NCBI GenBank assembly: GCA_003605055.1
Contig: QZKP01000012.1
Location: 62,001-126,000 of the forward strand
DNA length: 64,000 bases
Direction: 5' to 3'
From: Desulfarculus sp.
Lineage (GTDB): Bacteria; Desulfobacterota; Desulfarculia; Desulfarculales; Desulfarculaceae
A model generated the notes under the pieces. It did no database searches and was not told where the DNA came from. It saw only the letters and a program-made list of their open reading frames with translations. Position numbers and translations under genes: made by a program. Within the stretch, counting starts at the first letter, position 1. Each line of letters opens with the position of its first letter. Positions 21,244-38,025 of this stretch are shown here, piece after piece.

Positions 21244-23760
21244 TCAGCCTCTAAGTAGAGCTTGACGGATAACCTTGGCTATTTGATCTTCTCCAAATGG
21301 CTTTAACAAAATATGCTCGATCTCAAGTCCGTGGTCTTTTCTGGTGATTGAGTTATCTCTAGAGCCGGTCATGATGATGGTGGCGATGTCCGGTCTAATT
21401 TCCAACGCATTACGCACCAAATCCGTGCCCAAAAGGTGAGGCATGATTTGATCCGTAAGAATCAAGTCGAACTTTTCAGGATTGGCGATGAACATCTCCA
21501 ATGCCTTCTCTCCGGAGTCCAGGCTGGTGACTCTGTAGCCTAGCTTTTGCAGTAAGCGCGAGATCACATAAAGCACATCTTTCTCGTCATCCACGAGTAA
21601 AATGTGTTCCGACCCATTTTTGACCAGCGGATTTTCTGGTTCTTGTTTTTTATCGCTCTCGTCAATTCTGGGGAGATAGATATGGAAAGTAGTGCCGTGG
21701 CCCACTTGGGATGCCACGGTAATTTCTCCGCCACAACTTTTCACGATGCCATGCACCACGGCCAAGCCCATGCCGGTGCCGTGGCCAGATCTTTTGGTGG
21801 TGAAGAACGGCTCGAATATGCGCTCCAGTATCTTGGGCTCGATGCCCACTCCATTGTCGGCAAAGGTGATCAGGTGGTATGCGCCCGGAGGTAAGTCAGT
21901 GAAATTGCGGTTGTCATCTCCGCGGATTTTCACCTGGGTCAGGGATATGCTCAAGCGGCCGCCCTGGTCATTCATGGCATGCGCCGCGTTGGTCCCCAAG
22001 TTAATTATCATTTGCTGTATCTGGCTTGAGTCGGCCATCACCAATCCCGGATCGTCGGGGATGTCGCTGGAAATCTCTATGTCGGAAGGAAGGGAAGCCC
22101 TTAAGAAATTGAGGCCTTCCGTTAGGAGGGCGCCCAGGCGCACGAGTGATTTGTTGGCCTTGGACTGACGGCTGAAGCTGAGTATCTGACACACCATGTC
22201 CTTGGCGTTGTTGGATGCCTTCAGGGCGAGCTCCAAGTGGGGGAGGCAATCGTGGCTTGCGGGGATGTCATTGATGGCCAACTGGAGGCAGCCTAGGATC
22301 ACGGACAGGTAGTTGTTGAAGTCGTGGGTGATGCCGCTGGCCAAGGTGCCGAGCGCTTCCATCTTCTCGGCAATTTGAAGGCGTTTCTCCAGCCGCTTGG
22401 TTTCCTCCTCCGCTTGCTTTTGCTCAGTAATGTCAATTCCGGTGCCCAACATGCGCACCGCCCTGCCCTCACTATCCCGAATTGCGTGCCCCCTGGCATA
22501 TACCCAGCGGACCGAGCCGTCCTGGTGCAGCAGCCGGAATTGGCATATGAATTCGGATTTGTCGCCGGCAAGGTGTCCCTTGAAGCCTTCAATCAAGGCT
22601 TGGCGGTCATCTGGGTGGGCCATGTCCAGCCAATCATTTATATTGTGCAGGGGGGCTTGGTCGTGACTAAGGCCTATAAATTCCCATATCCTGGGGTCTA
22701 GGTACGCCTTCCCTGTAACTAAGTCCCAATCCCACACCCCCACTTTGGCGGCCCGCGTGGCGAGGTTGTAGCGCTCCTCGCTTTCCTTAAGCTTTTCCTC
22801 GAATCTCCTTTTCTCGGTCACGTCCAATCCCACGGCCCAACTGACCCAGCCTTGGATGGGAAACTGTTCCGAGATATTGGACCACGAGACAATCCTCTTG
22901 GCGCCATCCTTGCTGGTGAGTTCAGCTTCCAGGTTCCTGAACCCGCGTTTCTGGTTTTTTTGCAGGTTGTTGACGTGCCTGTTTTGCCTCGAGTCGGGGT
23001 ACAAAAGCCGCAGGGCCTCGGGGTTTCCCACTATTTCCTTGGCCGAATACCCGGTGACCCGCTCGCACTCCTGGTTCCAAAAAACCAGGTTGCCCTGTTC
23101 ATCGTGGGCGTGCAGCATCACCGGCATGCTGCTGATGATCTGCCTGAGTCTCTCCCGGGTTTCCCAGATGTTCTTTTCGTGGTCCTTGCGCTCCCTGATA
23201 TCGTGGAAAATATGTATGCCCCCTTTTATCCGTCCCTGCTGATCCACGGTGGGGGCGAAGGTAAGCGAGAAATCCCCCCCCAGGATGCTGGCTTCGATGC
23301 CCACGACCTGCTTGCCGCCGTTGGCAAGGCATTTGACGTACGGGCAATAAGGGGGAGGTTCGTCCAGGCCGCAGATCAATTTGTAGCAGGGCTGGCCCAG
23401 AGCCTCCCGGAACTCGACGCCCAGGCGTCGGGCAAGGGCTAGGTTTATCCTCTCCAGCCGGTAATCCTGGTCGATAATGGCTATGAGGTCCGGAACGGCG
23501 TCAAAGGTTCGTTCCCATTCCAGCTTGGCGTGAATGATGTTTTCTTGGAGATCGCGTAGCTCGGATAGCTCCTTGCTAAGTTTTCGGTTGTCATGGGAAA
23601 GCTCCGCGGCCTTCTGCCGCCATTGTCGGGTTTCAGCAAGTTTGAGGTGGGTGGGCATTTCCCCTCGCAGCCGTCGTAGTCTGCTAGTCTCCCGCCTTAT
23701 CTCGGGGCGTGACGCAGCCAAGCAAAAAAGGTGCCCTTGTCCCTCCAGCCAGCAGGGCAT
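21244..23760 (-). CDS. Hybrid PAS sensor histidine kinase with receiver domain
   Basis: An 838-residue cytoplasmic sensor kinase without membrane segments. In order: a coiled-coil start, three PAS domains (the first with a Cys cluster CGLDEPPPYCPYVKC, about residues 130-145), an H-box (GITHDFNNYLSVIL), the ATPase domain (DNGVGIE, GHGTGMGLAVV) and a C-terminal receiver with the phospho-acceptor Asp in DLILTDQIMP. An alternative start at the Met 34 codons further in (23658) is possible. It closes the gas-vesicle cluster on the same strand and may feed its phosphorelay, or be an unrelated neighbour. Confidence 0.85.
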   Translation of the reverse strand: MPCWLEGQGHLFCLAASRPEIRRETSRLRRLRGEMPTHLKLAETRQWRQKAAELSHDNRKLSKELSELRDLQENIIHAKLEWERTFDAVPDLIAIIDQDYRLERINLALARRLGVEFREALGQPCYKLICGLDEPPPYCPYVKCLANGGKQVVGIEASILGGDFSLTFAPTVDQQGRIKGGIHIFHDIRERKDHEKNIWETRERLRQIISSMPVMLHAHDEQGNLVFWNQECERVTGYSAKEIVGNPEALRLLYPDSRQNRHVNNLQKNQKRGFRNLEAELTSKDGAKRIVSWSNISEQFPIQGWVSWAVGLDVTEKRRFEEKLKESEERYNLATRAAKVGVWDWDLVTGKAYLDPRIWEFIGLSHDQAPLHNINDWLDMAHPDDRQALIEGFKGHLAGDKSEFICQFRLLHQDGSVRWVYARGHAIRDSEGRAVRMLGTGIDITEQKQAEEETKRLEKRLQIAEKMEALGTLASGITHDFNNYLSVILGCLQLAINDIPASHDCLPHLELALKASNNAKDMVCQILSFSRQSKANKSLVRLGALLTEGLNFLRASLPSDIEISSDIPDDPGLVMADSSQIQQMIINLGTNAAHAMNDQGGRLSISLTQVKIRGDDNRNFTDLPPGAYHLITFADNGVGIEPKILERIFEPFFTTKRSGHGTGMGLAVVHGIVKSCGGEITVASQVGHGTTFHIYLPRIDESDKKQEPENPLVKNGSEHILLVDDEKDVLYVISRLLQKLGYRVTSLDSGEKALEMFIANPEKFDLILTDQIMPHLLGTDLVRNALEIRPDIATIIMTGSRDNSITRKDHGLEIEHILLKPFGEDQIAKVIRQALLRG

Positions 23761-23919
23761 GACCCAGCCCTGAATCGGTGGGAGGGCCCGAGACAGCCGA
23801 TGGTGTTAACAAAGAAAATCCCCCCTCGGGTCGTGCTAACCGGGTATCTGGTTCATGCCACTCGGGTCAAATGGCTCTCGGTGCTTGCCTTGCGTTGCTC
23901 CGGGGCTGACCATTGGCGC

Positions 23920-24237
23920 TCATCCTGCGGTGGGAACAGGCAGGCAGGCCTCCAGGCTGTTCAGCCTCTGTTCCATCCGCCGTAAGGCATCATCCTCCGG
24001 CGGTGGCGCGGTCTGCGCCTTGAACGCGGGGTTGTTCACCCACCAGTCGATGCCCATTTCCCTGGCTTTGTCCACTGAACAGATGACCAAACGAATTTGC
24101 AGGGTGAGTAGCTCTACCTCCACCAGCTTGATCTTTATGTCGCCCGCGATCACCACGCCCTTGTCCAGGATGCGTTCAATTAGATCGGCGAGGTTGGCGC
24201 TTTCCACCGAATGCGCTGTGGCGCGTTGTATTGGCAT
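23920..24237 (-). CDS. Gas vesicle structural protein GvpA/GvpJ family
   Basis: A 105-residue protein whose first 60 residues contain the conserved GvpA core: LADLIERILDKGVVIAGDI followed by KLVEVELLTLQIRLVICSVD. The C-terminal extension (about residues 68-105) is beyond the minimal GvpA length and is typical of GvpJ/GvpM-type minor proteins. GvpA-family proteins assemble the ribbed shell. ATG 24237 is preceded by a GTG alternative. The GvpK gene lies 21 bases upstream. Confidence 0.85.
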   Translation of the reverse strand: MPIQRATAHSVESANLADLIERILDKGVVIAGDIKIKLVEVELLTLQIRLVICSVDKAREMGIDWWVNNPAFKAQTAPPPEDDALRRMEQRLNSLEACLPVPTAG

Positions 24238-24258
24238 CACATATCCTATAGTTATTTA

Positions 24259-24636
24259 TTATAGCAGCTTGCCCAAAGGGCCCAAGTCCAGATTTAGGTC
24301 CTCTTCCTCTAGATTGAACTCCAGCCTCAGCCGCTCTATCTCCTCGGTCTGCCGCAGCAAGGTCGCACCGATTTTCTCTATCTGCTCCTCGCTTAGGGAG
24401 CCCGCCTCCAGTCGGCGAATGGCTTGGCGCTCCATGAGCTCATGCAATAGCTTCACCAAGGTGAGCACCAGCTTTCCCAGGCCGTTCTTGAGGTCCTCGG
24501 GCTCCAGGTTCAGGCGGGGCCCCGGCGCGGCCGGTGCGACGGCATCCTCCTCCATCCTCGGCCCTGGTGCACGCATGGCCTGGAGAAAGTCGCCCATGCT
24601 CTCCGTGTAAATCTCCGGCCCATTGTCCAGACTCAT
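24259..24636 (-). CDS. gvpK: Gas vesicle protein GvpK
   Basis: A 125-residue protein from ATG 24636; the longer in-frame extension upstream runs through the neighbouring gvp gene and is rejected. GvpK features are present: a helical stretch LNLEPEDLKNGLGKLVLTLV, then LLHELMERQAIRRLEAGSLS and a leucine-rich acidic end. GvpK is needed for vesicle formation, probably in nucleation. Its start overlaps the stop of the next gene (ATGA). Confidence 0.85.
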   Translation of the reverse strand: MSLDNGPEIYTESMGDFLQAMRAPGPRMEEDAVAPAAPGPRLNLEPEDLKNGLGKLVLTLVKLLHELMERQAIRRLEAGSLSEEQIEKIGATLLRQTEEIERLRLEFNLEEEDLNLDLGPLGKLL

Positions 24637-24848
24637 ATTTTGGCTCCCAAGCTGATTTTGGCATCCTGCGCCGAGCGCGTGGCCGTATCCAACGAACAGA
24701 CGATGAGTTGCAGGCCAAGGTAGACTAGGTCCACCTCCGCCACGGAAATAGTGAGTTCGCCCATGATGACGGCGCCCTTGTGCAGGATGCGGTCCAGGAC
24801 CTCGCACAGGGATAGATGCTCTTGGTCGTGGTAGGCCGATTCACTCAT
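24633..24848 (-). CDS. Gas vesicle protein, GvpA/J/S family
   Basis: A 71-residue protein with the GvpA core LCEVLDRILHKGAVIMGEL and VAEVDLVYLGLQLIVCSLDT. It differs from the main GvpA by its terminal sequences and lacks a long tail. Together with the gene at 23920 it brings the GvpA-family count to three in this cluster. It is translationally coupled to gvpK. Confidence 0.85.
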   Translation of the reverse strand: MSESAYHDQEHLSLCEVLDRILHKGAVIMGELTISVAEVDLVYLGLQLIVCSLDTATRSAQDAKISLGAKI

Positions 24849-24930
24849 GTCACGCAAGCCGTTTCATTTCCGTCGAGGTGGCTCCTGGGTTGGCCCACGC
24901 GGCCGGCCGTTCTAGCGAGTCCGGCGCTGG

Positions 24931-25197
24931 CTAATCCCGCTCGGATGACTCTTCATCCCCACTGTTGCCTTCGCGTTGATTTATCTCCTCCAACCGATCC
25001 AATATCTCTGCCTCCTTTTGGTCGAACTCCTCATCGCTGATGTTCCCGCTCTCCAGCAACAGGTACAACTCGCTCAACTGGGCGGTAAGGTTCTCGGCCT
25101 CGCTGGCCATCTCCTGCTCGGCCGCGTTGTGTATTTCGCGGAAGATCCACAACAGGCCGCGGAAGGGGGCCATCAGGAGGTCGTCTATCAGCAACAT
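24931..25197 (-). CDS. gvpG: Gas vesicle protein GvpG
   Basis: An 88-residue protein with the GvpG start LLIDDLLMAPFRGLLWIFRE and an acidic coiled-coil tail (LYLLLESGNISDEEFDQKEA). GvpG is a small essential assembly factor, often next to gvpF/L, as here (28 bases from the F/L gene). The length is normal for the family. Confidence 0.88.
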   Translation of the reverse strand: MLLIDDLLMAPFRGLLWIFREIHNAAEQEMASEAENLTAQLSELYLLLESGNISDEEFDQKEAEILDRLEEINQREGNSGDEESSERD

Positions 25198-25225
25198 GGT
25201 AAAATGACTTTCCTGCCTTTGTTCA

Positions 25226-25984
25226 TTACAAATCCAAGTCTATATCCACAAAATTATGTGGCGCCCAGGGTCCGTTGTAGTCAAAGGCGTAGTTGTTGTC
25301 GAAAGCGCCAGCCGCCTTGAACACTCCCTTTTCGAATTCGGGCTGAGCCTGGCGTTCTACCAGGCAGGCCAGATTGGCCACCACCCGCTCGTCGCGCGGG
25401 TTGTTGACCTTGATTTCATGGCAATAGGGGCTGAGCATCTCCAAGACGGCGTCGGTGTGCTCTTCACGGTCCTCGCTCAGGATCCGGTCGAAGGTGCGCC
25501 CCACCTCGATCATGTCTTCCTGGCTGGGTTCGCGGTTGGTTACGAAGTAGCGGTCGCGCACGCTCCTTAGCTCGGAACGGGTATTGACGAAGTACTCGAA
25601 AATGTTGGGTACGTCCCAGGTGATCCGCACCCCCATCTCTACCTTGTCGGCCACGCGCCTCAGCTCGTTTAGAAAGACCTTCTGGTTTTCGGAGAGGATT
25701 TTTTGGATGGCTCCGGGGCCGTCGGCGATTATGCCAAAGGCCATGGGCAGCGGCGTGGTGTCGGCCATCAATGCCTTGAGCACTGCCTGGTGGGCCGCCA
25801 GGTTCCGCCTTTCCGGCCGGATTTTCCGGTTGGGCAGGTCGCTGACAACGGCGGACACTTTGCCGTCGCTCACGCAGTAGACCCGGCCGCTGCCCACGCC
25901 GATGGTGCCCAGCTCCCGCTCCCCGGCGTCGGCCACGATGGCGTAGAGATAGCGTCCGTCTGTTCCTTGGGATCTATCGTCCAT
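25226..25984 (-). CDS. Gas vesicle protein GvpF/L family
   Basis: A 252-residue protein from ATG 25984 (further in-frame sequence upstream to 26113 has no ribosome site and is rejected). GvpF/L features: an N-terminal YLYAIVADAGERELG strand, a middle KKLR-type helical domain with HQAVLKALMADTTPLPMAFG, and the terminal GPWAPHNFVDI, the counterpart of GPWPPYSF. GvpF/L binds GvpA and acts in nucleation of vesicles. This is one of three such proteins in the cluster. Confidence 0.85.
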   Translation of the reverse strand: MDDRSQGTDGRYLYAIVADAGERELGTIGVGSGRVYCVSDGKVSAVVSDLPNRKIRPERRNLAAHQAVLKALMADTTPLPMAFGIIADGPGAIQKILSENQKVFLNELRRVADKVEMGVRITWDVPNIFEYFVNTRSELRSVRDRYFVTNREPSQEDMIEVGRTFDRILSEDREEHTDAVLEMLSPYCHEIKVNNPRDERVVANLACLVERQAQPEFEKGVFKAAGAFDNNYAFDYNGPWAPHNFVDIDLDL

Positions 25985-26341
25985 GGGCCCCAATCCTTCC
26001 TGATCAAAAGCGGAGTGATTGAGTGCGCCCGGGGATGCTTCCCCGGCGGAAAGGCCGGCGCTCGGACAAAACCCGCATCCCCAGGGGAAGCCGGAAAGCC
26101 TTGCCCAGGCCAACCAGCCTTCGCACTTGTCGCTGGGTCAGTTTCTGGTCGGCCAGGTCCCTGCGAGCTCGATCCCAAAGGAGGGTCCAAAAGCTGGTTC
26201 CGGTTCGCAGGGACGCACACCCTTTGATATTTCCGCGCCGGCGGATGTGATCCGCTGTCTTGATCCGCAACAAGGTCCGCCTCACTCTGGCCTGGCCCGC
26301 AGGCCGCCCTGGTTGGCGTCGGTTGTGGAAGCGCCGCCGCC
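25985..26341 (-). other. Gap in the gvp cluster; possible extra small gene
   Basis: A 357-base stretch separates the GvpF/L gene and the small helical protein gene. A 113-residue minus-strand frame starting with TTG (26345) and ending at 26004 occupies it, with a mixed Arg-rich N-terminus and a plausible helical segment (ARRDLADQKLTQRQVRRLVG). An opposing frame on the plus strand also fits. Codon use does not clearly favour coding, so it is recorded as uncertain. Confidence 0.3.
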
Positions 26342-26686
26342 TCAATACCTTACCTTGAAAATCGGGGCCTTATCCGTGGCTCCCCTGGAGGATGCCTCGC
26401 CTTGCGGCTGGGCAGACCTCTGTCTGGCCGCGGCGGTTTGGGTCACATGCCCATAAACGGCCACCAGCTCGGCCTCTTCGGCCTCGATCTCTCTAAATCG
26501 TTGTTCTATGAGGCCCACCCGGTGCAGGGCGCTGTCGCGTTCCTTGCCCTTGCGCGCCTTTTCCATCTCCAGGCAGGAGATGCGCATGAAGGCCCGGTAG
26601 GGCTCGGACAGGGGGCTGACCCGCCCGCTGTGGGTTTTGATGTCCTGCACGCCCCGCAGGCTGGTCTTGGGTCTGGTCATGGCCAT
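26342..26686 (-). CDS. Small helical protein of the gas-vesicle cluster
   Basis: A 114-residue protein, largely helical and charged (SCLEMEKARKGKERDSALHR, IEQRFREIEAEEAELVAVYG). No recognised family; it might be a cluster-specific vesicle accessory. It starts at ATG 26686 behind AAAGGAAAGG. It lies 14 bases downstream of gvpN in the transcript, so it belongs to the same operon. Confidence 0.6.
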   Translation of the reverse strand: MAMTRPKTSLRGVQDIKTHSGRVSPLSEPYRAFMRISCLEMEKARKGKERDSALHRVGLIEQRFREIEAEEAELVAVYGHVTQTAAARQRSAQPQGEASSRGATDKAPIFKVRY

Positions 26687-26700
26687 ATGCCTTTCCTTTA

Positions 26701-27696
26701 TTAATGGCTCGCCGTCTCCTTGAAGTCCTCTCGTCCCCTGCCGCAGATGTTTTGAAATGCCTCGTTGATCTTCTCGTTCATGAGGGAAAGGCCTTCGCGG
26801 GTGACCTTGGCGGTGTCGGTGTTCAGCACATCCCGGCAGACCCAGGCGAAGCGAGGATCATCCAGGGTGGCCCCGACCTCCAGGTGGGCCAGGATGCGGG
26901 CGATGGCGATAGTGGCGCGGATGGTGGGGCGGTGGTTCCGCACCCCCACTCCCCTGAGTTCCCGCACCAGATCCACTATCACTTCGGCGTCCTGGCGGGG
27001 AATCCCGGATTTGCGTATGGCCACCGCCACCTCTGTCTCACGGTCGAAATGGCCCAGGGTGATGGTGATGAGGCGGTCCAGCAGGGCGTCCTGGGTCTTG
27101 TGCACACCCGCGTATTCCTCGGGGTTGGAGGTGAAGATAGCCCGGAACTCGGGGTGAACCTGGAGGTATCCCTCCCCGGCCCGGCGCAGCTTGGGCAGAT
27201 TGAGGATTTTCTCCTCCAAGACGCTTAGCAGGGCGTTGTTGGCCTCGGGGCGGGAGCGGGTGAATTCATCGTAGACCAGAGTGTAGCCTTCGCTGCAGGC
27301 GGTGGTGAGGCGGTTGTCCTCCCAAATGGTGTGCATGCTTTCCTCGGTCCGCAGAACCGAGTGGATGTAATTGTCCACCAGCCTGGACTTGCGATAGCCG
27401 GAGTCGCGCCCCACCAGGTCCGAGCCGGCGAACTCATCATCTCCGTGTACGAGCACCACGGGCCGGCCCAGTTGGGCGGCTACGTGAAAAGCCAGGGTGG
27501 TTTTGCCGGTGCCCGCCGGCCCCGCGAAGTGGACAGGATAACCAACCTTCAGATAGGCCAACGCTCTTTGGGTGAGGTCATTCACATAGGAGCTGGTGAC
27601 GAACTCGTCGCTGGCCTCGGGCTGAACGCTGTCGCCGGGGATGTCGGCCCGCACCGTGGCATGGGAAAGGGTTTTCAAGCCCGCGTGTTCGCTCAT
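26701..27696 (-). CDS. gvpN: Gas vesicle AAA+ ATPase GvpN
   Basis: A 331-residue MoxR/GvpN-type AAA+ protein. Walker A is GPAGTGKT (about residues 59-66), Walker B YTLVYDEFTRSRPE, sensor region AIFTSNPEEYAGVHKTQDAL. GvpN proteins are thought to power a step in vesicle assembly or widening, together with GvpO-like partners. The length is normal. It follows the GvpC-like gene in the transcript. Confidence 0.9.
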   Translation of the reverse strand: MSEHAGLKTLSHATVRADIPGDSVQPEASDEFVTSSYVNDLTQRALAYLKVGYPVHFAGPAGTGKTTLAFHVAAQLGRPVVLVHGDDEFAGSDLVGRDSGYRKSRLVDNYIHSVLRTEESMHTIWEDNRLTTACSEGYTLVYDEFTRSRPEANNALLSVLEEKILNLPKLRRAGEGYLQVHPEFRAIFTSNPEEYAGVHKTQDALLDRLITITLGHFDRETEVAVAIRKSGIPRQDAEVIVDLVRELRGVGVRNHRPTIRATIAIARILAHLEVGATLDDPRFAWVCRDVLNTDTAKVTREGLSLMNEKINEAFQNICGRGREDFKETASH

Positions 27697-27820
27697 TTCT
27701 CTTTTCCTTTTGCCGGCAAGGAGGCCACCTGGGACGTCTCCCGGGAGCTGCGGGGCCGGGGAGAGCGGCTTGCCATGGCCGTGGGCCCTTTGGCTCCAGG
27801 CCGGCCCCGGGGTAACATAA

Positions 27821-28972
27821 CTAAATTAGTTTCTTGGCCTGCTTTATCCAATTCTCCACGTTGGCGTTCCTGGCCGCCTGGTCCAGGATTTCGCGCAGCT
27901 TGGCGGGATCGCTTTTAGCGAGCTTGGCGTAGGTGTCGATGCCGGCCAGGTAAAGCTTGCTCTGTAGGCGGGGCCCGATGCCCTTGATCACCGTTAGCTG
28001 GTCCAGGTGGAGCGCGCCAGGCTCACCGGTCTGGAACTTTTTCTCAGCCTGGGCGGGCTTTTCTTTCTCAAGCTCGGGCCTGGGTGGCTTCGCCAGAGGG
28101 GCCGTGGCCTTGCGGCCCTGCCAGGACGCCTTGGCACCTTCCAGGTCATCGGAGAATTCGCGCCGCATGATCCCCACCGCGGCCTTCAGTTCCTTCACGT
28201 AGAGCTTGATGTCTTCCTCGAAGGGCCTTAGCTGATCCATTATCTCCTGGGCCCTGCGGCGTCGGTCCTGGGCAAACCGGGCCTGCTGGTCGGTCACCTC
28301 GGTTCGTAGTCCCGAGACGAACCTTTGGCGGGAGCCGCGGTCTTCAGCAGCCGTTTTCTTCTGGCCCCGCCGGAGGCCGTCCATCATGTCAGCCACTTGG
28401 TCCATGAATTGGTTTACGAAGGCCACTTGGTCGGCCAAAAAGGAAAGCCGCTCCTTGCGCGAGCTCCGGGCGGCCCTGGCTTGGGCTTTGCGTATGGCCG
28501 CCAATAAGTCGTCGGTCTCCTTCTGCAGGGCGGCGGCGTCGCTCTTGAGTCCGTCACAAAAAGCGCCCAACTCGGTCTGGATCTCCGCGGACATGCTGGT
28601 TCGGGCATCCAAGAAGCCATCCAGCATGGTGGTAACCGTGCCCGCCAGGTCGGTTATGAAGGCGTTGCGTTCGGTCCTCTGGTCGCGGGCCATCTCGCCG
28701 TGGGTCTGCCGCAGGGCCTGCCGCATGTCCGCGCTCTGTTCCTTCAGCTCCGCTACCCGATCCTTGATTTTTTCAACCGCATCTTCCAGCGTGACCTTCA
28801 TGTCCGCGGCCATATTTTCACGGGCCTTGCTGAAGTCGGCCCGCATCTCCACGGTGACTTCCCGCAGATTGGCCACGGCGTCTTTCACGCCCGCCAGGAA
28901 GTCCGCCCGCTTTCCCCGTCCTGCGATTATTTCATCGCGCAACCGGGTCATGTCCTCAGTCATCCGGCCCAT
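27821..28972 (-). CDS. GvpC-like coiled-coil protein with C-terminal helix-hairpin-helix domain
   Basis: A 383-residue protein from ATG 28972 (AGGAG seven bases upstream). Residues 1-280 are an almost continuous helix in which a Phe-based motif (FLAGV, FITDL, FCDGL, FLADQ, FVSGL) recurs at residues 25, 105, 138, 178 and 218, giving spacings of 33, 40 and 40 residues between the last four. This recalls the repeats with which GvpC lies on the vesicle shell. After a Pro/Lys linker, residues 334-370 form a helix-hairpin-helix domain (LTVIKGIGPRLQSKLY). The gene follows gvpA and precedes gvpN, the place of gvpC. The GvpC call is inferred from repeat pattern and position. Confidence 0.6.
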   Translation of the reverse strand: MGRMTEDMTRLRDEIIAGRGKRADFLAGVKDAVANLREVTVEMRADFSKARENMAADMKVTLEDAVEKIKDRVAELKEQSADMRQALRQTHGEMARDQRTERNAFITDLAGTVTTMLDGFLDARTSMSAEIQTELGAFCDGLKSDAAALQKETDDLLAAIRKAQARAARSSRKERLSFLADQVAFVNQFMDQVADMMDGLRRGQKKTAAEDRGSRQRFVSGLRTEVTDQQARFAQDRRRRAQEIMDQLRPFEEDIKLYVKELKAAVGIMRREFSDDLEGAKASWQGRKATAPLAKPPRPELEKEKPAQAEKKFQTGEPGALHLDQLTVIKGIGPRLQSKLYLAGIDTYAKLAKSDPAKLREILDQAARNANVENWIKQAKKLI

Positions 28973-29041
28973 GTGCCTTCTCCTTTGACTTGCGCCCATC
29001 TTCCCGGCGTCGGTTCACCACGCCGAGCTACGCGGTGATGG

Positions 29042-29096
29042 GAATTGAGCTTCCGCGGGGGGCCGTGGAAGACAAGCCCCCCACGGAGCTCAATTC
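29042..29096 (-). promoter_or_regulatory. Stem-loop between gvpA and the gvpC-like gene
   Basis: GAATTGAGCT (29042-29051) pairs with AGCTCAATTC (29087-29096), and inside it CCGCGGGGGGC pairs with GCCCCCCACGG with one mismatch, beginning 18 bases after the gvpA stop. There is no T tract on the minus strand, so it is not a classic terminator. It may stabilise the gvpA message or partly block read-through, keeping GvpA in excess. Confidence 0.6.
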
Positions 29097-29114
29097 TGGC
29101 CCATTGCCTTTGAC

Positions 29115-29333
29115 CTACGCCGGGGCGGCGGCGGTCGCGGTCAGGCCGATGGCCTCGGCGTACTTCAGATAGGTTTCGACCGAAGCGATCACCACCCTAG
29201 CCTCCACGGACAGCAGCTCGATGCCCACCAGGGACACCTTGGCCCAGGCGTCGATGACGATGCCCTTGTCCAAAATCCGATCCACAACCTCCGCCAGGCT
29301 GGAAGAGTCTGTGGTCTTCTGCACCTTTGCCAT
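29115..29333 (-). CDS. gvpA: Main gas vesicle structural protein GvpA
   Basis: A 72-residue protein of the usual GvpA length. It carries the conserved core [20 protein letters not shown] and [20 protein letters not shown], then [12 protein letters not shown]. GvpA builds the ribs of the gas-filled shell. It is preceded by an ideal ribosome site (GGAGG, 6-base spacing) and by a sigma-54 promoter (29398-29413), marking it as the highly expressed head gene of the structural operon. Confidence 0.95.
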
Positions 29334-29397
29334 GAAAAACCTCCTTCTTTCGGGTTGATCCTAAACCAGCGCCGGTTTCCGGTATGTCCCCTGACAT

Positions 29398-29413
29398 TGC
29401 CAGAGACGTGCCA
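29398..29413 (-). promoter_or_regulatory. Sigma-54 (-24/-12) promoter of gvpA
   Basis: On the minus strand TGGCACG-TCTC-TGGCA fits the consensus TGGCACG-N4-TTGCW with one mismatch, and the invariant GG and GC dinucleotides are at the right spacing. It lies about 65 bases upstream of the gvpA start, giving a 5' leader of roughly 55 bases. Confidence 0.8.
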
Positions 29414-29504
29414 ACCGGACCGCTGGTCGGTGAAAAATATGATCTAATTGTTATGACTGAAGAATATTAGATCTGGCGTAGACGGATGCGATTGGCGGAA
29501 GCAG

Positions 29505-29540
29505 CATTCCTATGGAAGCTGCACCCATTCCTAGGGAAGC
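29505..29540 (-). promoter_or_regulatory. Paired upstream activator boxes for the sigma-54 promoter
   Basis: Two near-identical boxes, CATTCCTATGGAAGC (29505-29519) and CATTCCTAGGGAAGC (29526-29540), are each an imperfect palindrome (TTCC..GGAA) and are 21 bp apart, that is two helical turns. They lie about 90-130 bp upstream of the -24 element, the normal location for NtrC-type enhancer sites. The likely protein is the response regulator encoded at 35801-37222. Confidence 0.65.
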
Positions 29541-29605
29541 CATGCCATAGTAAAGCAATCCTCTCCCCAACATAAAACCCCGGTGGAACCACAACCGGAA
29601 GCCAT

Positions 29606-29971
29606 CTAGGGCAAGGACCTCAAAATGTCCTCGTTTTTGAAGGGCTTGCTGATGAAATCAGCGATTATCTTTTCGGACAGGGCCTTTTGCACCGCATCGT
29701 CGTCTTTGTAGAAGTAGCCGGAAACCACCACGATGCGCAGGCCGGAGGCCAGTTCGCGCAGGCGGCCGGCCAACTCCAGGCCTTCCATGTCGGGCAGCTT
29801 TGCATCCACGAAGGCCAAGGCCGGATTATGGGCCTCGGCCAGGCGAAGGGCTTCCTGGCCGCTCAAGGCCTTGATTACCCGCCGGCCGGTTTTGCGCAAG
29901 ATGTGTTCCAGGGCCCAGCACATTTCCGGTTCGTCGTCCACGATGAGGATCAATTGATCATCTTTTCCCAT
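29606..29971 (-). CDS. Single-domain response regulator (receiver)
   Basis: A 121-residue CheY-like receiver: acidic pocket IVDDEPE, phospho-acceptor Asp in ALAFVDAKLPDMEG (about residue 56), Thr/Ser switch in IVVVSGYF, Lys in ISKPFKNED. No output domain. It is read just after the PAS kinase gene (77 bases) and just before gvpA, so it may relay a signal within the vesicle circuit. Confidence 0.85.
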   Translation of the reverse strand: MGKDDQLILIVDDEPEMCWALEHILRKTGRRVIKALSGQEALRLAEAHNPALAFVDAKLPDMEGLELAGRLRELASGLRIVVVSGYFYKDDDAVQKALSEKIIADFISKPFKNEDILRSLP

Positions 29972-30047
29972 GGGTCGAGCCTCCAGCGGGTGGCGGCCTG
30001 AAGCGCCGCGGGGCAGGCTGTGCGGCCACCGCGCATCTAGGGCTGGT

Positions 30048-31580
30048 TCACAATCCGGTGGAGCGTCTCTCCTTGCGGGACATGATCACCGGCAATCGCA
30101 CCCAAAAGGAGCATCCCTGCCCCGGCGCGCTCTCCACCTCGATAGAGCCGAAGTGCTGCTTGATGATGCTGTAGGAAATCGACAGGCCCAGGCCGGTGCC
30201 TTGGCCCACCGGCGAGGTGGTGTAAAAGGGATCGAAGATTTTGTCGATCTCCCCCGGGGAAATGCCCTTGCCGGTGTCGGTCACGCCAACTCGCACTTCC
30301 CGCTTTCCCAGGCTCTCCACCGAGACTTCCATTACCCCTCCCCCGGGCATGGCGTTGATGGCGTTCAGGAAAAGGTTCATGAACACCTGCTGCAAAAGGC
30401 TGCCCACGCCGCTGACCAAGACCTGCTCCTGGGGGAAATTGGTAGTTGTGGTCACCTTTTGAAGGCGGGCCTGGTTGGCCACCAGGGACAGGGTTTCCTT
30501 TATCGTGGAAACCAGGTCCACCAACTCCACGGCCGCCTTTTCCTTGGGCCGCGCGAACCGGAGCAGGTTCTCGATTATCTCGGAAGCCTTGCGTATGCCC
30601 CTGTAGATTTTTTCGGAGCACTCTCGGCGAAGGACTGGCTCCAGATCATCCTCCATGAGGAACTGAGCGGCGGAGGAGCAGACCGCCAAGGGGTTTCTGA
30701 TCTCGTGGGCGATGCCGCCGGCCATGACCCCCAAGGCGGCCAGCTTCTGGGATTGCAGTATCTGCATCTCGAACTTGCGGCGTTCGCTTAAATCCCGGCC
30801 CACGGCCACCACTCCCACGACCTTGGACAAGGCATCCTTCATGGGGGAAAGGACCCAGGAAACCGAAACCCTGGCTCCCTGCTTGGTGAGCAGGTCCCAT
30901 TCCGCCATGTGATAGTTGCCGCCTTTCTTTTGCATATCCAGGGCGCGGGTCACTTCCTCCCTGATGTCCGGGGCGCAATAGCTGGAAAAAAGCTCGCCTT
31001 GAATCTCCCGCAAGGCATAGCCGGACACCCTTTCGGCGGCGGTGTTCCAGGTCAGAATCCCGCCATTTATGTCCATGGACAGCACAATGTCGCTGGCGCT
31101 CTCCACCACGCTGGAGAGGTGCCGCTCCACCCGGCGCACCTCCTCGCTCAGCCGAACCTGTTCGGTGATGTCCTCCATGAGCAACATGACGTTGTACACT
31201 TCTCCCTCACGGGAAAAGGGCATGATCCGGTAATAGTAGTAACGCATGGGCACGCCCGGAACCCGGTAGGTCAGGCGCTCGCCGTCGGTGGGCTGGTTGC
31301 TATCAAAGACCTGCTGAATTCGGCCGATTATGTCCAGATTGTCCAAGATGACAGCCGGGAATATCTCCTCCAGCCGGCGGCCGATGGTTCCCTCGGCGGG
31401 ACGCCGGCTTTTCTCCAGGAAGTTGCGGTTGGCCGAGACCACCCGTAAGCTCCGGTCAATCAAGAGTATGGAAGAAGGAATGGCCTCCAGGAGCAGGTGG
31501 TAGAGCATCTCATAGTAGCTTTCCACTTCCTGAGGTTTGTGGCCGTTCGGGTTGGTGATCACCGGCCAGGCCCTTTTCAT
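30048..31580 (-). CDS. PAS-domain sensor histidine kinase
   Basis: A 510-residue soluble kinase. Two PAS domains (about residues 25-145 and 155-270), then an H-box with GGIAHEIRNPLAVCS, an N-box region MNLFLNAINAMPGGG, G1 DTGKGISPGEIDK and G2 GQGTGLGLSISYSI. The form is that of NtrB-like kinases that pair with sigma-54 activators, so the NtrC-type regulator at 35801 is the natural partner. Its start overlaps the stop of the GvpF/L gene upstream. Confidence 0.88.
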   Translation of the reverse strand: MKRAWPVITNPNGHKPQEVESYYEMLYHLLLEAIPSSILLIDRSLRVVSANRNFLEKSRRPAEGTIGRRLEEIFPAVILDNLDIIGRIQQVFDSNQPTDGERLTYRVPGVPMRYYYYRIMPFSREGEVYNVMLLMEDITEQVRLSEEVRRVERHLSSVVESASDIVLSMDINGGILTWNTAAERVSGYALREIQGELFSSYCAPDIREEVTRALDMQKKGGNYHMAEWDLLTKQGARVSVSWVLSPMKDALSKVVGVVAVGRDLSERRKFEMQILQSQKLAALGVMAGGIAHEIRNPLAVCSSAAQFLMEDDLEPVLRRECSEKIYRGIRKASEIIENLLRFARPKEKAAVELVDLVSTIKETLSLVANQARLQKVTTTTNFPQEQVLVSGVGSLLQQVFMNLFLNAINAMPGGGVMEVSVESLGKREVRVGVTDTGKGISPGEIDKIFDPFYTTSPVGQGTGLGLSISYSIIKQHFGSIEVESAPGQGCSFWVRLPVIMSRKERRSTGL

Positions 31581-32344
31581 CGCCCGTAATCCTGCGAAGG
31601 AGCTGCGAAGCTGTAGGGGGGCCAGGGCCCGCTGAGCAGCAGCTTGACGTTCTCCTCACGTGAATACGCTGCGAAGGTCAGGCGAAAGGCTCCTACCCAA
31701 GGCCGGGGAACCAGGAAATACATGGATAGTAGTTGGTGGTCGTCTTCGGCCCCCTGGGCCGGGACCGGCCCCTGGCTCAGGGAGCGGACGAACAAACCGG
31801 CCAGGGCGGCCCGGCACCGGCTGGGCCAATCGCCGCCCGCCCGGCCCTGCTGGGCCCCCCGCTCGTGGTTCCCGCGCCGGGCGGAGAGGTAGGCCAGACC
31901 CGGATGCTCCGAGGCCTTGGCCCGGGCCGCGCAGGCCAGGCGCGAGGGAGGGGCCTTTGGCTGGGAGGCCGCTTCCTCCTTGGTCCCGGCGGGCAACAGG
32001 GCCCGGACGCCCATTTCCACGCACCCGGCCAACTCGGCCAGGAGCGGCTGGAAACGACCGCGCCCCGCTTCCAGGAGGGTGAGGACCTGGTCCCGGTCCC
32101 GGCACAGGCAACCATAGCGCAGGGGAATGACCGTGCGCTGGGCATGGAACGCCGCCACCACCTTGCCGTAAGCCAACAGATCCTCCACCGGGGCCGCGGA
32201 GCGGGGCCTATCCATCCAGGAAAGCGCGGCGCCCAAGCCGGCGCGGCCTGTCACCTCCACCTTGCCTCCTGCCACCCCGGGCGGGGTTTGGGGAGGCGGG
32301 GGGGCTTGACCGGCGAACAGGCAATAGAGCAGGCAGGTCATCAT
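31577..32344 (-). CDS. Gas vesicle protein GvpF/L family
   Basis: A 255-residue protein from ATG 32344, coupled to the upstream GvpF/L gene through ATGATGA. It has the C-terminal GvpF/L signature GPWPPYSFAA and the central HAQRTVIPLRYGCLCRDRDQ segment. The N-terminal start (MMTCLLYCLFAGQ) replaces the usual YLYAIV strand. It is the second of two tandem F/L genes. Confidence 0.8.
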   Translation of the reverse strand: MMTCLLYCLFAGQAPPPPQTPPGVAGGKVEVTGRAGLGAALSWMDRPRSAAPVEDLLAYGKVVAAFHAQRTVIPLRYGCLCRDRDQVLTLLEAGRGRFQPLLAELAGCVEMGVRALLPAGTKEEAASQPKAPPSRLACAARAKASEHPGLAYLSARRGNHERGAQQGRAGGDWPSRCRAALAGLFVRSLSQGPVPAQGAEDDHQLLSMYFLVPRPWVGAFRLTFAAYSREENVKLLLSGPWPPYSFAAPSQDYGR

Positions 32345-33144
32345 GCTTGCTCGTTGGCCAGACGAGGGGCGAAGCTGTAGGGCGGCCAGGGCCCCGAACA
32401 CTCAAAAAACAAGCCTTGCCTGGAATTGGCGGCTGAGTTCTGCTGAAGCTGGGCCTGGAAATCAGCCACCTGTTCGCGGGGCACCCAAAAGGCCCAGTTG
32501 GCGGCCATCTCCCGGTTGTCGCCGCTGGAGCGCATGTTCAGCAAGCCGCGCTGGCGAAACTCCGCCGCCTGCCGCGCCAAGGCCTGGCCCATGGCCTCAC
32601 AGGTCCGACTCAGCCACTGGCCAAGCTCCTCCTGGGCCGCCGCGGCCAGCTTCTTCTCCTCAAAATAGCGTTGACCCGGGCCCAGGGCCGCCAGGCGCTC
32701 CGAGGCCTGCCGCTGCTTTTCCTGGCTCAGCCGCTTCAGGGCCTGGGCCTTATCCCAATAGCCCTTGACCGCCCATTCCTCCCGGCCGGCGGCCAGGTTC
32801 AAAAACTCCGCGACGGCCTCCTGATGCGGCCGCACCCGTTCCGCCAGGGCCTCTAGCGAAGAGAAGATGGTCCCAAAGCGCAGGGGCAGCACCGGCGACA
32901 GGGCCATGGCCCGCTCCACCACCTCCTCGTGGCGGCAGATCCGCGGCACCAGCCAGGCCGTGTCCTGGAGCCGGTCTTCGGCATCCGCGCCGCTATAATC
33001 ATCCAGGGAAACCGGGCAAACCACCGCGGCCAGGCTGCCCAGGCCGTGCAGGCGCAGCGGAAACCCCTCCTCCAGGCCCGGGCCGTCCAAGGAATGCGCC
33101 AGCTCAGCCTTGGTCAGGCAAAACACGTAAAGCGCTTGTTTCAT
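32341..33144 (-). CDS. Gas vesicle protein GvpF/L family
   Basis: A 267-residue protein from ATG 33144, which overlaps the CDC48 stop (ATGA). A longer in-frame extension to 33630 is arginine-rich shadow inside the CDC48 gene. Conserved points: ALYVFCLTKAELAHS at the N-terminus, HEEVVERAMALSPVLPLRFG in the middle and CSGPWPPYSFAP at the end. It is the third GvpF/L-family protein of the cluster. Confidence 0.85.
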   Translation of the reverse strand: MKQALYVFCLTKAELAHSLDGPGLEEGFPLRLHGLGSLAAVVCPVSLDDYSGADAEDRLQDTAWLVPRICRHEEVVERAMALSPVLPLRFGTIFSSLEALAERVRPHQEAVAEFLNLAAGREEWAVKGYWDKAQALKRLSQEKQRQASERLAALGPGQRYFEEKKLAAAAQEELGQWLSRTCEAMGQALARQAAEFRQRGLLNMRSSGDNREMAANWAFWVPREQVADFQAQLQQNSAANSRQGLFFECSGPWPPYSFAPRLANEQA

Positions 33145-35270
33145 TTTCTCGCCATCACCGTGGCCAACGCCTGGCCCAGGTCGTCGGGAGTCAACTCGAC
33201 CTTGGTCTCCTCGCCGGCTGCATCCCCGGCCTCGGCCACCACCCGGCTCACGCTGCGCAGGGCGGCCAGGTTGCAGATGGAGGCGATCTCGGCTCCGCTG
33301 AGGTCCCCGCTCTCGGCGGCCAACTGCCGGGCGCTTATACCCGGGGCCAAGGGCTTGTTGGCCAAATGGACCGCGAAGATGGCCTCCCGGTCCTCGGCGT
33401 CGGGATGGCCTATCTCCACCACTTCGTCGAAACGCCCGGGGCGCAGCACGGCGGAGTCCAGCATGTCGGGCCGGTTGGTGGCCCCCAGCACCACCACGCC
33501 CTTGAGTTCCTCCACCCCGTCCATCTCCACCAGAAACTGGCTGAGCACGCGGTCGGACACGTGGGAATCGGAGGAATTGCCTCCCCGGGCCGGCAGCAGG
33601 GCGTCTATCTCGTCGAAGAACAGGATGCAAGGGGCGGCCTGGCGGGCGGTGCGGAAGACCTCGCGCACGCCCCGCTCGGATTCACCTACATACTTCGACA
33701 ACAGGGCCGGGCCCTTGACCGAGATGAAGTTTACCTGGCTCTCGTTGGCCACGGCCTTGGCCAACAAGGTCTTGCCGCAACCGGGCGGGCCGGCCAGCAG
33801 GATGCCCTTGGGCGGGTTCACGCCGGCCCGGCGATAAATGGGGGCGTATTGCAAGGGCCACTCCACCGCCTTGCGCAGGCGCTCCTTTACCTCCGACAAG
33901 CCCCCCACGTCGTCCCAGCCCACGTCGGGCACCTCCACGAAGACCTCCCGGATGGCCGAGGGCTCCACCCCCTTTAGGGCCGAGACGAAGTCGTCCGCCT
34001 GCACCTCCAGGCGCGACAGTTGTTCGTAAGGGATGCTGGCCTGGGAGAAATCTATGTCGGCCATTATGCGGCGCAGACAACTCATGGCCGCTTCCCGGCA
34101 CAGGGCCTCCAGGTCGGCGCCCACGAAGCCGTGGGTGATGGCCGCCAGACGGTCCAGCTCCACGTCATCGGCCAGGGGCATGCCCCGGCTGTGTATCTCC
34201 AGGATTTCGCGGCGGGCGTTGCGGTCCGGGATGGGGATGGTTATCTCGCGGTCGAAGCGGCCCGGTCGGCGCAGGGCGGGGTCCAGGGCGTGGGGCAGGT
34301 TGGTGGCCGCGATGACGATTAGGTTCTGCCGGCGGTTCAAGCCATCCATCAGGGCCAGGAGCTGGGCCACCACCCGCTTCTCCACGTCACCCACCACGTT
34401 CTCTCGTTTGGGGGCGATGGCGTCTATCTCGTCCAGGAAGACTATGCTGGGGCCCTTGGCGGCCGCCTCCTGGAAGATCTTGCGCAGATGGGCCTCGCTC
34501 TCGCCATAAAATTTATGGATCACCTCCGGACCGCTCACCGAGAAGAACCTGGCCTCGGTCTCATGGGCGATGGCCCGGGCGATGAGGGTTTTGCCGCAGC
34601 CGGGCGGGCCGTGCAGCAGCACTCCCTTGGGCGCGTCTATGCCCAGGCGTTCGAAGACTTCGGGATAACGCAGGGGAAGCTCGATCATCTCGCGGACGCG
34701 TTGCAACTGGGGGCCCAGCCCGCCGATGTCCTCGTAGGAAAGTTCGCGTCCCCTGTCCTCCTGTTGGGGCTTGCCCACGGTCAATTGGGTGGTGGGGTTT
34801 ATCAACACCGGTCCCTTGGGCACGGTCCGTTCCACCTTGAAGCTGGCCGAGCGGCTGCCGAAGAGATTGGCCCGTATGCGGTCGCCCTCCACCACGGGCA
34901 GTCCGTCCAAAAGCCCGCCGATGTAGGGCAGGTCCCGCGGGGCCGGCCGGATGTTGGTGGGCCCCAACACCACCTGTTCGGCCGGGTGGCAGGCGCCTTT
35001 GCGCACCAGGACCGTCTCGTCCACACCTACCCCTGCGTTGTCCCGGCTCAAGCCGTCTAACTGCACGCGGGCCTGGCCCCTGAGCTCTTTGTAGGCCGGC
35101 ATGGCCTTGCAAAAGGTATGGCGGGCGCCCTCTACCTCCACGATGTCGCCGATGGTCACCTGGAGGCGGTCCATGTCCTCGGGACCCATGCGGGCGAAGG
35201 CCCGGCCCATGTCCTTGGCCAGGGCCTCGGTTACGCGCAGCTTGATGGCTTTGACGTTGCGTTTGGGCAT
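33141..35270 (-). CDS. CDC48/VAT-type double AAA+ ATPase
   Basis: A 709-residue protein. An N-terminal substrate-binding double-psi barrel region (residues 1-190; RVTEALAKDMGRAFARMGPE, VLGPTNIRPAPRDL) precedes two AAA modules, each with Walker A GPPGCGKT and Walker B (VFLDEIDAIAPKRE; LFFDEIDALLPARG). The architecture is that of archaeal VAT and eukaryotic p97. It extracts or unfolds proteins. Such ATPases occur in some gas-vesicle clusters; a role in folding or removing Gvp proteins is inferred. Confidence 0.9.
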   Translation of the reverse strand: MPKRNVKAIKLRVTEALAKDMGRAFARMGPEDMDRLQVTIGDIVEVEGARHTFCKAMPAYKELRGQARVQLDGLSRDNAGVGVDETVLVRKGACHPAEQVVLGPTNIRPAPRDLPYIGGLLDGLPVVEGDRIRANLFGSRSASFKVERTVPKGPVLINPTTQLTVGKPQQEDRGRELSYEDIGGLGPQLQRVREMIELPLRYPEVFERLGIDAPKGVLLHGPPGCGKTLIARAIAHETEARFFSVSGPEVIHKFYGESEAHLRKIFQEAAAKGPSIVFLDEIDAIAPKRENVVGDVEKRVVAQLLALMDGLNRRQNLIVIAATNLPHALDPALRRPGRFDREITIPIPDRNARREILEIHSRGMPLADDVELDRLAAITHGFVGADLEALCREAAMSCLRRIMADIDFSQASIPYEQLSRLEVQADDFVSALKGVEPSAIREVFVEVPDVGWDDVGGLSEVKERLRKAVEWPLQYAPIYRRAGVNPPKGILLAGPPGCGKTLLAKAVANESQVNFISVKGPALLSKYVGESERGVREVFRTARQAAPCILFFDEIDALLPARGGNSSDSHVSDRVLSQFLVEMDGVEELKGVVVLGATNRPDMLDSAVLRPGRFDEVVEIGHPDAEDREAIFAVHLANKPLAPGISARQLAAESGDLSGAEIASICNLAALRSVSRVVAEAGDAAGEETKVELTPDDLGQALATVMARK

Positions 35271-35303
35271 TCGGTCACCCCCGGACCCTGGGCTCGACTA
35301 AAC

Positions 35304-35804
35304 CTAGTTGGTGCATTTGATTTCCAGGATGCCGTTGTTGCAGGAGACCCGCATCTGTTCCCTGGAATAGGCGCGGGGCAGCAGCACCTCCTTTTGATAT
35401 TTCTTGTCACCGCTTTCGGCCTGGATGGTCAGCAGGTCATCAATCACCTCCAGGCGGACGTCCTCGGCGCTGATGCCGGGCATTTCAGCCACCACCAGGG
35501 TGTGGTCCGCCTCCTCGAAGATGTCCACCATGGGCTCGCGCACCTCGTGGATCACCGATTCGCCGCTTTTCTCGTCCTTGCGGATATTGCCGAAGGGCTC
35601 GACCTTCATCTCCTGGTCGCCCAGACCCATCTTGACCGAAAAGCCGTAAACTCCCTTCATGCCCTTTCCCTTGGGCTCGAAATCGACCTCGCCCGTGCGG
35701 GAAAGGCTCTCCCCCTTTTCAGCCAACTCACCGAGCTTCTCCACCAGCTCACCCAGGCCCTTGAGCAATCCCCCCACGCCCTCACCGGTTCGTTTGCCGC
35801 TCAT
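35304..35804 (-). CDS. gvpH: Hsp20-like gas vesicle protein (GvpH)
   Basis: A 166-residue protein with an alpha-crystallin-type C-terminal domain (MVDIFEEADHTLVVAEMPGI, LEVIDDLLTIQAESGDKKY, LLPRAYSREQMRVSCNNGIL) after a charged N-terminal part (GGLLKGLGELVEKLGELAEK). It lacks the terminal I-x-I oligomerisation motif. GvpH is a small chaperone in gas-vesicle clusters. Start ATG 35804 overlaps the stop of the regulator gene. Confidence 0.8.
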   Translation of the reverse strand: MSGKRTGEGVGGLLKGLGELVEKLGELAEKGESLSRTGEVDFEPKGKGMKGVYGFSVKMGLGDQEMKVEPFGNIRKDEKSGESVIHEVREPMVDIFEEADHTLVVAEMPGISAEDVRLEVIDDLLTIQAESGDKKYQKEVLLPRAYSREQMRVSCNNGILEIKCTN

Positions 35805-37222: not shown

Positions 37223-37862
37223 GGTCATGGGCCTTCTGGTGTTGAGGAAAATAAAGTGGATAGACGGTTTCTATATCCACCGCCAGCCAGGGGCTCAGGT
37301 TGTGAAGCATGCCCAGAAACACGATCCCCACGTCCCCGGGCTCCAAGGTGTCGCTTATCCTGTGGGCGATGAATTCATCCCGACTTGCCAGGATCGTCTC
37401 CAATATCTCCGCGGGCTGTTTCGAGCGGGACTCTGATCTGGAATGATGTTTATTGCCCAGCCCTTGCTTTATTACCTCGTACTCCCGCACCAGCAGATCA
37501 GCCGATTCGGTGCCCATCAGGCGGGCGCCTCGCTCCACCAGCTTTAAAACCAAGCGGTGGTTGGGGCTGCCCAACTTGGCCAGGTCCCGCACGATGTTTA
37601 TTTCTTTCCTGCAGATGGGTAGACCGTCCTGGTATATCTTGATCTGCGGATAGCTCAACTCCAGGGCATCCAGGGCCTTTTCGGTCTCCTGCCACATCCG
37701 GTGGATGAGCTCTTTTTTGCGCTGCCAACCTTCCTGGCCGCTATGCTGGACAGAAAGCCAGCGAACGGCTTGTTCAAGCCCCCCCATGTCGCTAGGAGCG
37801 TGGATTATAGGGAAGTAGTAGAGCAGCCTTTTAGGCTTGGTTGGTTGACCGCGGCGATCCAT
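37212..37862 (-). CDS. Hypothetical protein heading the gas-vesicle cluster
   Basis: A 216-residue soluble protein that overlaps the regulator start by 11-17 bases. It begins RRGQPTKPKRLLYYFPIIHA and has an alpha-helical interior (RLVLKLVERGARLMGTESAD) and a C-terminal GDVGIVFLGMLHNLSPWL. No family was recognised. The tight overlap with the regulator suggests a functional link, perhaps signal sensing. Confidence 0.6.
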   Translation of the reverse strand: MDRRGQPTKPKRLLYYFPIIHAPSDMGGLEQAVRWLSVQHSGQEGWQRKKELIHRMWQETEKALDALELSYPQIKIYQDGLPICRKEINIVRDLAKLGSPNHRLVLKLVERGARLMGTESADLLVREYEVIKQGLGNKHHSRSESRSKQPAEILETILASRDEFIAHRISDTLEPGDVGIVFLGMLHNLSPWLAVDIETVYPLYFPQHQKAHDHAR

Positions 37863-38025
37863 TTCATCCCCGGCTGATGAATTGGACGTGCTATGTAGAC
37901 AAGCGCTGTGGAATTAATTCTATGGAATGGTTTACCTATATTTCTGGAACCAACTCACCAATGATTCATCCTACCACCTCACCGCTATGAAGGTTTCAAC
38001 TTTGATTTTGGTTGATATAGAGCGC

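Follow-up and report, generated by a model that had tools for sequence, protein, structure and literature searches.

The window, a 64,000-nucleotide stretch of a Desulfarculus sp. genome, probably contains a gas-vesicle cluster regulated by GvrABC, in which the activator GvrA acts on a 20-bp dyad and drives the sigma-54 promoter of gvpA1. The genes, the promoter element and the conservation of the operator are established by sequence; dependence on sigma-54 and a requirement for GvrA, GvrB and GvrC have been demonstrated experimentally in Serratia and would apply here by analogy. Over a wider range of bacteria, the evidence leans towards GvrA-type activators of three phyla (the window's own, Pseudomonadota and that of a Calditrichaeota genome) sharing the operator CTAKGG-N8-CCMTAG, frequently accompanied by another half-site at a distance of 21 bp. 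It leans, too, towards this operator and the palindrome GGCATGCC together forming a conserved, so far undescribed control region of gas-vesicle operons, that of the laboratory model among them. Since the predicted operator extends to a tractable enterobacterial cluster, binding of GvrA is directly testable. The dyad also allows gvr-type control to be recognized from sequence in uncultured bacteria, and the operator could serve builders of inducible gas-vesicle reporters.

All genes of the cluster described here lie on the minus strand, in the order gvpY-like, gvrA, gvpH, a gene for a Cdc48-type AAA ATPase, gvpF2, gvpF3, gvrB, gvrC, a gap and gvpA1, followed by a gene for a coiled-coil-looking protein, gvpN and more gvp genes, to about 23920. 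The first gene of the gvr operon (37212–37862) is 39–40% identical to the enterobacterial ORF after gvpA3, the position from which the name gvpY was assigned; a gvpY-like gene precedes gvrA elsewhere as well, for example in L083, L086, L092 and L094–L097. The gvrA gene (35801–37228) encodes an NtrC-type sigma-54 activator composed of a receiver, a sigma-54 AAA+ domain with a GAYTGA loop and an HTH_8 domain whose second helix reads DYKT, and its product is 47% identical to enterobacterial GvrA over the aligned part. The GAFTGA-type loop of such activators contacts sigma-54. The gvrB product (30048–31580), a histidine kinase with the domain matches PAS-PAS-HisKA-HATPase, is 57% identical to its enterobacterial counterpart. 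Domain searches thus bear out the first-pass annotation, which had placed an NtrC-type activator and an NtrB-like kinase in the cluster, and add a third regulator, the response regulator GvrC (29606–29971), in which Response_reg covers nearly the whole protein and which is 49–50% identical to the enterobacterial gene in the matching position.

Between gvrA and gvrB lie gvpH (35304–35813), an Hsp20-like gene matching both Pfam HSP20 and GvpH above their cut-offs; the Cdc48-type gene (33141–35270; NCBIfam CDC48, 863.9 bits, above cut-off), which would be gvpZ by position and has a 64% identical counterpart between the enterobacterial gvpH and gvpF2; gvpF2 (32341–33144), a GvpF/L family member named by position and 35% identical in the enterobacterial loci; and gvpF3 (31577–32335, start approximate), named by position from its neighbourhood and the enterobacterial comparison. 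The shell protein gene gvpA1 (29115–29333, ATG at 29333) encodes 72 aa (Pfam PF00741, E 1.5e-16), and gvpN (26701–27696; NCBIfam TIGR02640, 349.5 bits, above cut-off) lies in the operon downstream of it. The end of gvrC and the start of gvpA1 are separated by a 272-bp gap that holds the promoter element and the boxes described below. The genome encodes sigma-54 itself (rpoN; Sigma54_DBD 211.8 bits, open frame of 515 aa). Neither gvpD nor gvpE, the genes of the haloarchaeal control system, was found among the Pfam matches of the ten cluster proteins scanned, and Rfam gave no match in the 20–40 kb part of the window. A strong GC-rich inverted repeat, seen by eye at 29041–29096 (minus strand) between gvpA1 and the next gene, is perhaps a processing or attenuation hairpin. 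The gvp genes are followed, likewise on the minus strand, by a gene at 21244–23760 for a large PAS histidine kinase that apparently ends in a C-terminal receiver; the parts of the literature available to us name no such kinase for the Serratia gvp locus.

Control of this kind had been described in the first-pass annotation as different from that of other organisms. Some of the work bearing on this point goes back to Hill 2021, which is reportedly a thesis. In the available text on Serratia sp. ATCC 39006, gvpA1 has a mapped start behind a sigma-54 consensus, GvrA is a sigma-54, NtrC-like regulator, and mutants in gvrA, gvrB or gvrC show reduced gvpA1 expression (PMC4982088), and an rpoN insertion is reported to abolish vesicles and gvpA1 transcription and to leave gvrA-gvrC expression unchanged (PMC11778176, citing Hill 2021). 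Given this GvrABC precedent with homologous gvr genes, the idea that this control is of a new kind is unsupported, and the novelty of sigma-54 control of gas vesicles is ruled out by what these reports (PMC4982088, PMC11778176) contain in the portions seen: the circuit in the window is a further GvrABC-type system, and the circuit itself is already known. The proposal of a dedicated two-component sigma-54 switch is, its newness apart, probably right, as it is backed by the anatomy of the locus, its conservation and the homologous Serratia system. GvrA and GvrC homologues have also been reported from a purple sulfur bacterium, in the part of PMC5944118 available.

The Serratia locus (PMC4982088, PMC11778176, as far as their available text goes) resembles the window in its gvr genes, gene order, sigma-54 site and NtrC-family GvrA. 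It differs in that the gvr operon follows gvpA1, whereas in the window the gvr operon, with the gvpY-like gene first, precedes it; the same inverted operon order is given for Desulfomonile tiedjei and Psychromonas ingrahamii in the text seen of PMC4982088, which does not describe the promoters or boxes of these two clusters. Among 392 Enterobacteriaceae genomes searched, gvpA was found in two (loci L242 and L243). Both carry the published Serratia order for all matchable genes over about 16.5 kb, and their GvpA is 93% identical to the window's; these genomes are probably those of the Serratia strain or its sister species. The domain plan of kinase and activator and the enhancer/sigma-54 logic are also those of NtrB/NtrC nitrogen regulation. 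The dyad in the window, however, differs from what we take to be the NtrC operator. GvrA is likewise distinct from NtrC proper, scoring 419.1 bits against a cut-off of 558.6 for NCBIfam TIGR01818 (ntrC).

Upstream of gvpA1, two near-identical palindromic boxes 21 bp apart had been proposed, and both are present on the minus strand: TTCCCTAGGAA at 29528–29538 and TTCCATAGGAA at 29507–29517, 21 bp from start to start, with the nearer box 94 bp above the −24 element. The shared pattern TTCCNTAGGAA (TTCCnTAGGAA) occurs in these two copies and nowhere else in the 64 kb, against 0.03 expected, and none of 100 shuffles held two; a search for the pair with up to 3 mismatches gave a single hit in the 3.6-Mb genome and none in the control. 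As a conserved unit the 11-bp palindrome did not stand up. Of 37 gvpA1 upstream regions only that of the window contains TTCC-N3-GGAA, and of 73 gvpA-like hits two are preceded by it: the gvpA1 of the window and, in L092, a minor gvpA copy. It was therefore rejected as the binding unit. The relatives are instead explained by a half-site, TTCC[AC]TAG, and then by a 20-bp dyad, CTAKGG-N8-CCMTAG. The full dyad in the window, CTATGGCATGGCTTCCCTAG (29531–29550, minus strand, 0 mismatches), is the predicted GvrA operator; it includes most of box 1 as its right half, and its left half, CTATGG, falls outside box 1. Box 2 completes only half of the dyad and supplies a second predicted half-site, TTCCATAG (29510–29517, minus strand), which is separated by 21 bp from the corresponding half of the dyad.

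In the 3.6-Mb genome the only perfect copy of the dyad is that at 29531–29550. A further 11 places match with one mismatch, and these are mostly chance, since the reversed control still scored 8 hits per strand to the 12 of the dyad pattern. The half-site word is no commoner in the window than expected (3 copies, 3.21 expected), and the dyad pattern first tried, at up to 3 mismatches, was found 3 times against 0.95 expected, with as many in 8 of 100 shuffles; for both, only location is telling. The core dyad with up to 2 mismatches occurs four times in the window: the perfect site, a site before the gvpY-gvrA operon, and two in the prophage part.

The case for the dyad as an operator comes from comparison of gvpA1 upstream regions. 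From 63 hits in 60 sequences, 35 of 46 first-copy gvpA regions were kept after removal of those whose upstream sequence was shorter than 150 bp or identical over the last 120 bp, and two enterobacterial regions were added later to give 37. When all 8-mers, exact or with one wildcard, were ranked in the 35 regions against 30 shuffles, TTCCATAG was the most over-represented, present in 15 of 35 regions against 0.27 expected. It was followed by overlapping versions of itself and then by other words; one of these, TACTTTTA, sits far upstream in the apparent end of gvrC, and several others were taken, by eye, as gvrC coding words. Alignment of the regions on TTCCATAG revealed a second half 12 bp upstream, and hence the 20-bp dyad.

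Regions were labelled by hand as gvr-type (type I) or other (type II) from gene neighbourhoods and GvpA identity, L093 and L098 being imperfect members of type I. The core dyad was present at 0, up to 1 and up to 2 mismatches in 4, 17 and 19 of 23 gvr-type regions (shuffles 0.00, 0.09 and 1.09), in 2, 2 and 3 of 14 other-type regions, and in 0, 0 and 17 of 659 control segments from the same loci. At up to 2 mismatches the difference between the two types (19/23 vs 3/14) gives a Fisher value of 0.0004. The four gvr-type regions lacking such a dyad are L086, L088, L096 and L207, of which the first three still have a match to a position weight matrix (PWM) at p ≤0.015. These region counts overstate independence, because a single family, f8, accounts for 9 regions out of 35 and for 8 of the 15 that carry TTCCATAG; counted by family, the dyad is present at up to 2 mismatches in 9 of 11 gvr-type families, being missing in f11 (L086) and f13 (L096).

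The K/M core pattern was chosen after inspection of the data, as was the HTH grouping below, and since it was refined on the very regions that it scores, a held-out test is the fairer one. With a PWM built from 13 relatives' sites, leaving out the window and the enterobacteria, the window dyad was recovered at p 0.005 (none of 200 shuffles as good) and the dyads of both enterobacterial loci at p 0.015 and 0.005. The enterobacterial operator reads TTAGGG-N8-CCATAG and lies about −195 from the −12 element; the window has the perfect dyad. In a leave-one-out version, 22 of 37 regions matched at p ≤0.015, namely 20 of the 23 gvr-type regions and 2 of the 14 others. The gvr-type regions missed were L092 (0.100), L093 (0.333) and L207 (0.299); L093 has a perfect core dyad despite the miss, and its inner bases differ. 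A Calditrichaeota genome (L104/L234) also has a gvr-type cluster with gvrA, gvpH, the Cdc48-type gene and the operator; no match to gvrB or gvrC was found in the stretch of that cluster examined. Among the best 80 of 157 GvrA-matching loci in a contig scan, only L103 and L104 (59 and 58%) rose above ordinary EBPs (≤43%). The available text of PMC4982088, PMC5601083, PMC6617781 and PMC11778176 does not mention a GvrA operator, the word "enhancer" is absent from that of the first three, and a full-text literature search surfaced no other paper on GvrA binding. CTAKGG-N8-CCMTAG is thus likely a new predicted GvrA operator, undescribed in the literature searched.

The link between the dyad and GvrA is strengthened by the recognition helix. 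The gvr-type proteins have DYKT in the second HTH helix, a sequence shared by several further proteins, and others have DRMT or DRVT. Of 23 regions with a DYKT-type GvrA, 17 contain a dyad with up to 2 mismatches, as against none of four with DRMT or DRVT (Fisher 0.012), a small, post hoc comparison covering 27 of the 37 regions. The ten regions outside the grouping are nine without a GvrA in the alignment and L073, left out because the best match of its genome (L059, 363 bits) was taken for a paralogue. By eye, no word is common to the palindromes of the four DRMT/DRVT-type regions. An unlikely alternative accepts the sigma-54 promoter and the GvrABC regulators, and assigns the dyad and boxes to a different protein, which would be either a repressor or an accessory factor; GvrA would then bind at some other place or act from solution. 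The available text of PMC4982088, PMC11778176, PMC5601083 and PMC6617781 reports no DNA binding by GvrA, and that of PMC4982088 offers a Serratia precedent in the quorum-sensing input SmaR, which directly represses gvpA1. Among PWM matches at p ≤0.015 the distance from the dyad to −12 varies widely, from about −97 to −315, which would suit such a protein but is also what an enhancer allows; and the dyad tracks both the gvr-type cluster and the recognition helix of GvrA, and recurs before gvpY-like genes.

That recurrence begins with the window itself, where a weaker predicted GvrA site, ATAGGTAAACCATTCCATAG (37920–37939, minus strand, 2 mismatches), lies about 60–80 bp before the gvpY-gvrA operon and holds the window's third, and only other, copy of TTCCNTAG. 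Alone the site is weak, given the two further 2-mismatch sites in the prophage part. Upstream of gvpY-like genes, however, dyads with up to 2 mismatches were found in 5 of 18 cases (the window copy, L037, L043, L045 and L103), against about 0.85 expected by scaling the shuffle rate of the gvpA1-region count. These sites suggest that GvrA may regulate its own gene. The enterobacterial loci have no dyad at up to 2 mismatches before the gvpY-like gene or gvrA (the best before gvrA have 3 and 4), so self-regulation would at best be lineage-specific; their lack of a gvrA dyad fits the sigma-70 promoter reported for Serratia gvrA in the available text of PMC4982088.

The first-pass annotation had also read the 21-bp spacing as two helical turns, and this is moderately supported by its recurrence in relatives. 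When a CCMTAG-like second half-site was sought at offsets of −45 to +45 (L243 being dropped as a near copy of L242), the best offset was −21, with a mean of 3.80 of 6 against 1.77 (sd 0.61), followed by +14 (3.43). At −21, 8 of 20 regions match at least 5 of 6 positions, six of the eight belonging to f8. The window's own partner half-site lies at +21.

An activator other than GvrA could act on gvpA1, since the source genome contains 25 GvrA matches at E ≤1e-60. The promoter itself was found as proposed, 65 nt before the gvpA ATG at 29333: the −24/−12 element TGGCACGTCTCTGGCA (29413–29398, minus strand) matches 11 of 12 consensus positions with correct GG/GC spacing. Counting against it, its −12 half reads TGGC, not TTGC. 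By shuffle tests the match is unremarkable at the 64-kb scale (2 sites at ≤1 mismatch where 0.75 would be expected, and 17 of 100 shuffles with as many), yet remarkable within the 250 bp before gvpA (P = 0.0015, 2000 shuffles), and an element of at least 10/12 is present in 24 of 37 gvpA1 upstream regions against 0.37 in shuffles. That the match is fortuitous, with gvpA transcribed instead from a sigma-70 promoter or by transcripts running on from the gvr operon before it, as the chance level of such sites in the whole window and the end of gvrC only 272 bp away on the same strand might suggest, is very improbable in view of this conservation and of Serratia, where the available text of PMC4982088 describes a mapped start fitting sigma-54 and no detected read-through between gvp operons, with the operon order there reversed. 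In the gvpA1 promoters of families f8 and f52 the −24 is kept and the −12 reads TTGA or TTGG (L072, L084, L088, L089, L092, L199, L204, L212, L216 and L218). Between boxes and promoter, an AT-rich stretch at 29441–29473 contains, by eye, an 8-bp inverted repeat, GATCTAAT/ATTAGATC; its IHF match, also judged by eye, is poor.

We propose a model for the GvrABC circuit in which GvrB, a PAS kinase that looks soluble from its sequence, would sense the signal (low oxygen, if Serratia is a guide) and pass phosphate to GvrA, the presumed direction of flow, with the receiver-only GvrC as a possible second phosphate acceptor. Phosphorylated GvrA would then bind CTAKGG-N8-CCMTAG about 120–150 bp upstream of the gvpA1 −12, using the full dyad at 29531–29550 and, on the same helix face, the half-site that lies 21 bp closer to the promoter. 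Its GAYTGA loop would remodel the sigma-54 polymerase held at 29413–29398, so that transcription starts near 29387 (−12 C at 29399) and gvpA1 and the following genes are turned on. Through the weaker site before gvpY-gvrA, the activator may in addition regulate itself.

A further conserved element lies near the transcript start. In gvr-type regions the 8-bp palindrome GGCATGCC starts 14–17 nt downstream of the −12 C, between about +3 and +6 of the expected gvpA1 transcript, and falls within about +3 to +13. Exact copies are present in 12 of 22 such regions (L083, L088, L092, L094–L098, L199, L204, L216 and L218) and copies with up to 2 mismatches in 21 of 22, against a mean of 1.39 in base shuffles. 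The window has a degenerate copy with 2 mismatches, GACATACC (29381–29388, minus strand), starting at about −1 of the expected transcript. This palindrome may be a repressor site or an mRNA 5' element.

The distribution of gvpA is patchy, suggesting that the whole cluster (about 23900–37900) was gained horizontally. In a sample of the phylum, 35 of 395 genomes have a GvpA-family match, and 24 of these 35 have GvrA matches of at least 413 bits; in the window's class the source genome is the only one of 63 with gvpA. Among Pseudomonadota the gene was found in 4 of 398 genomes, and in the class of G006 in 14 of 29. Adjoining the gas-vesicle cluster, positions 1–20800 contain a contractile-tail prophage with major head protein, tail sheath, tape measure and baseplate genes; 8 of 10 proteins scanned matched PHROGs, and its GC content is higher, about 0.67–0.73.
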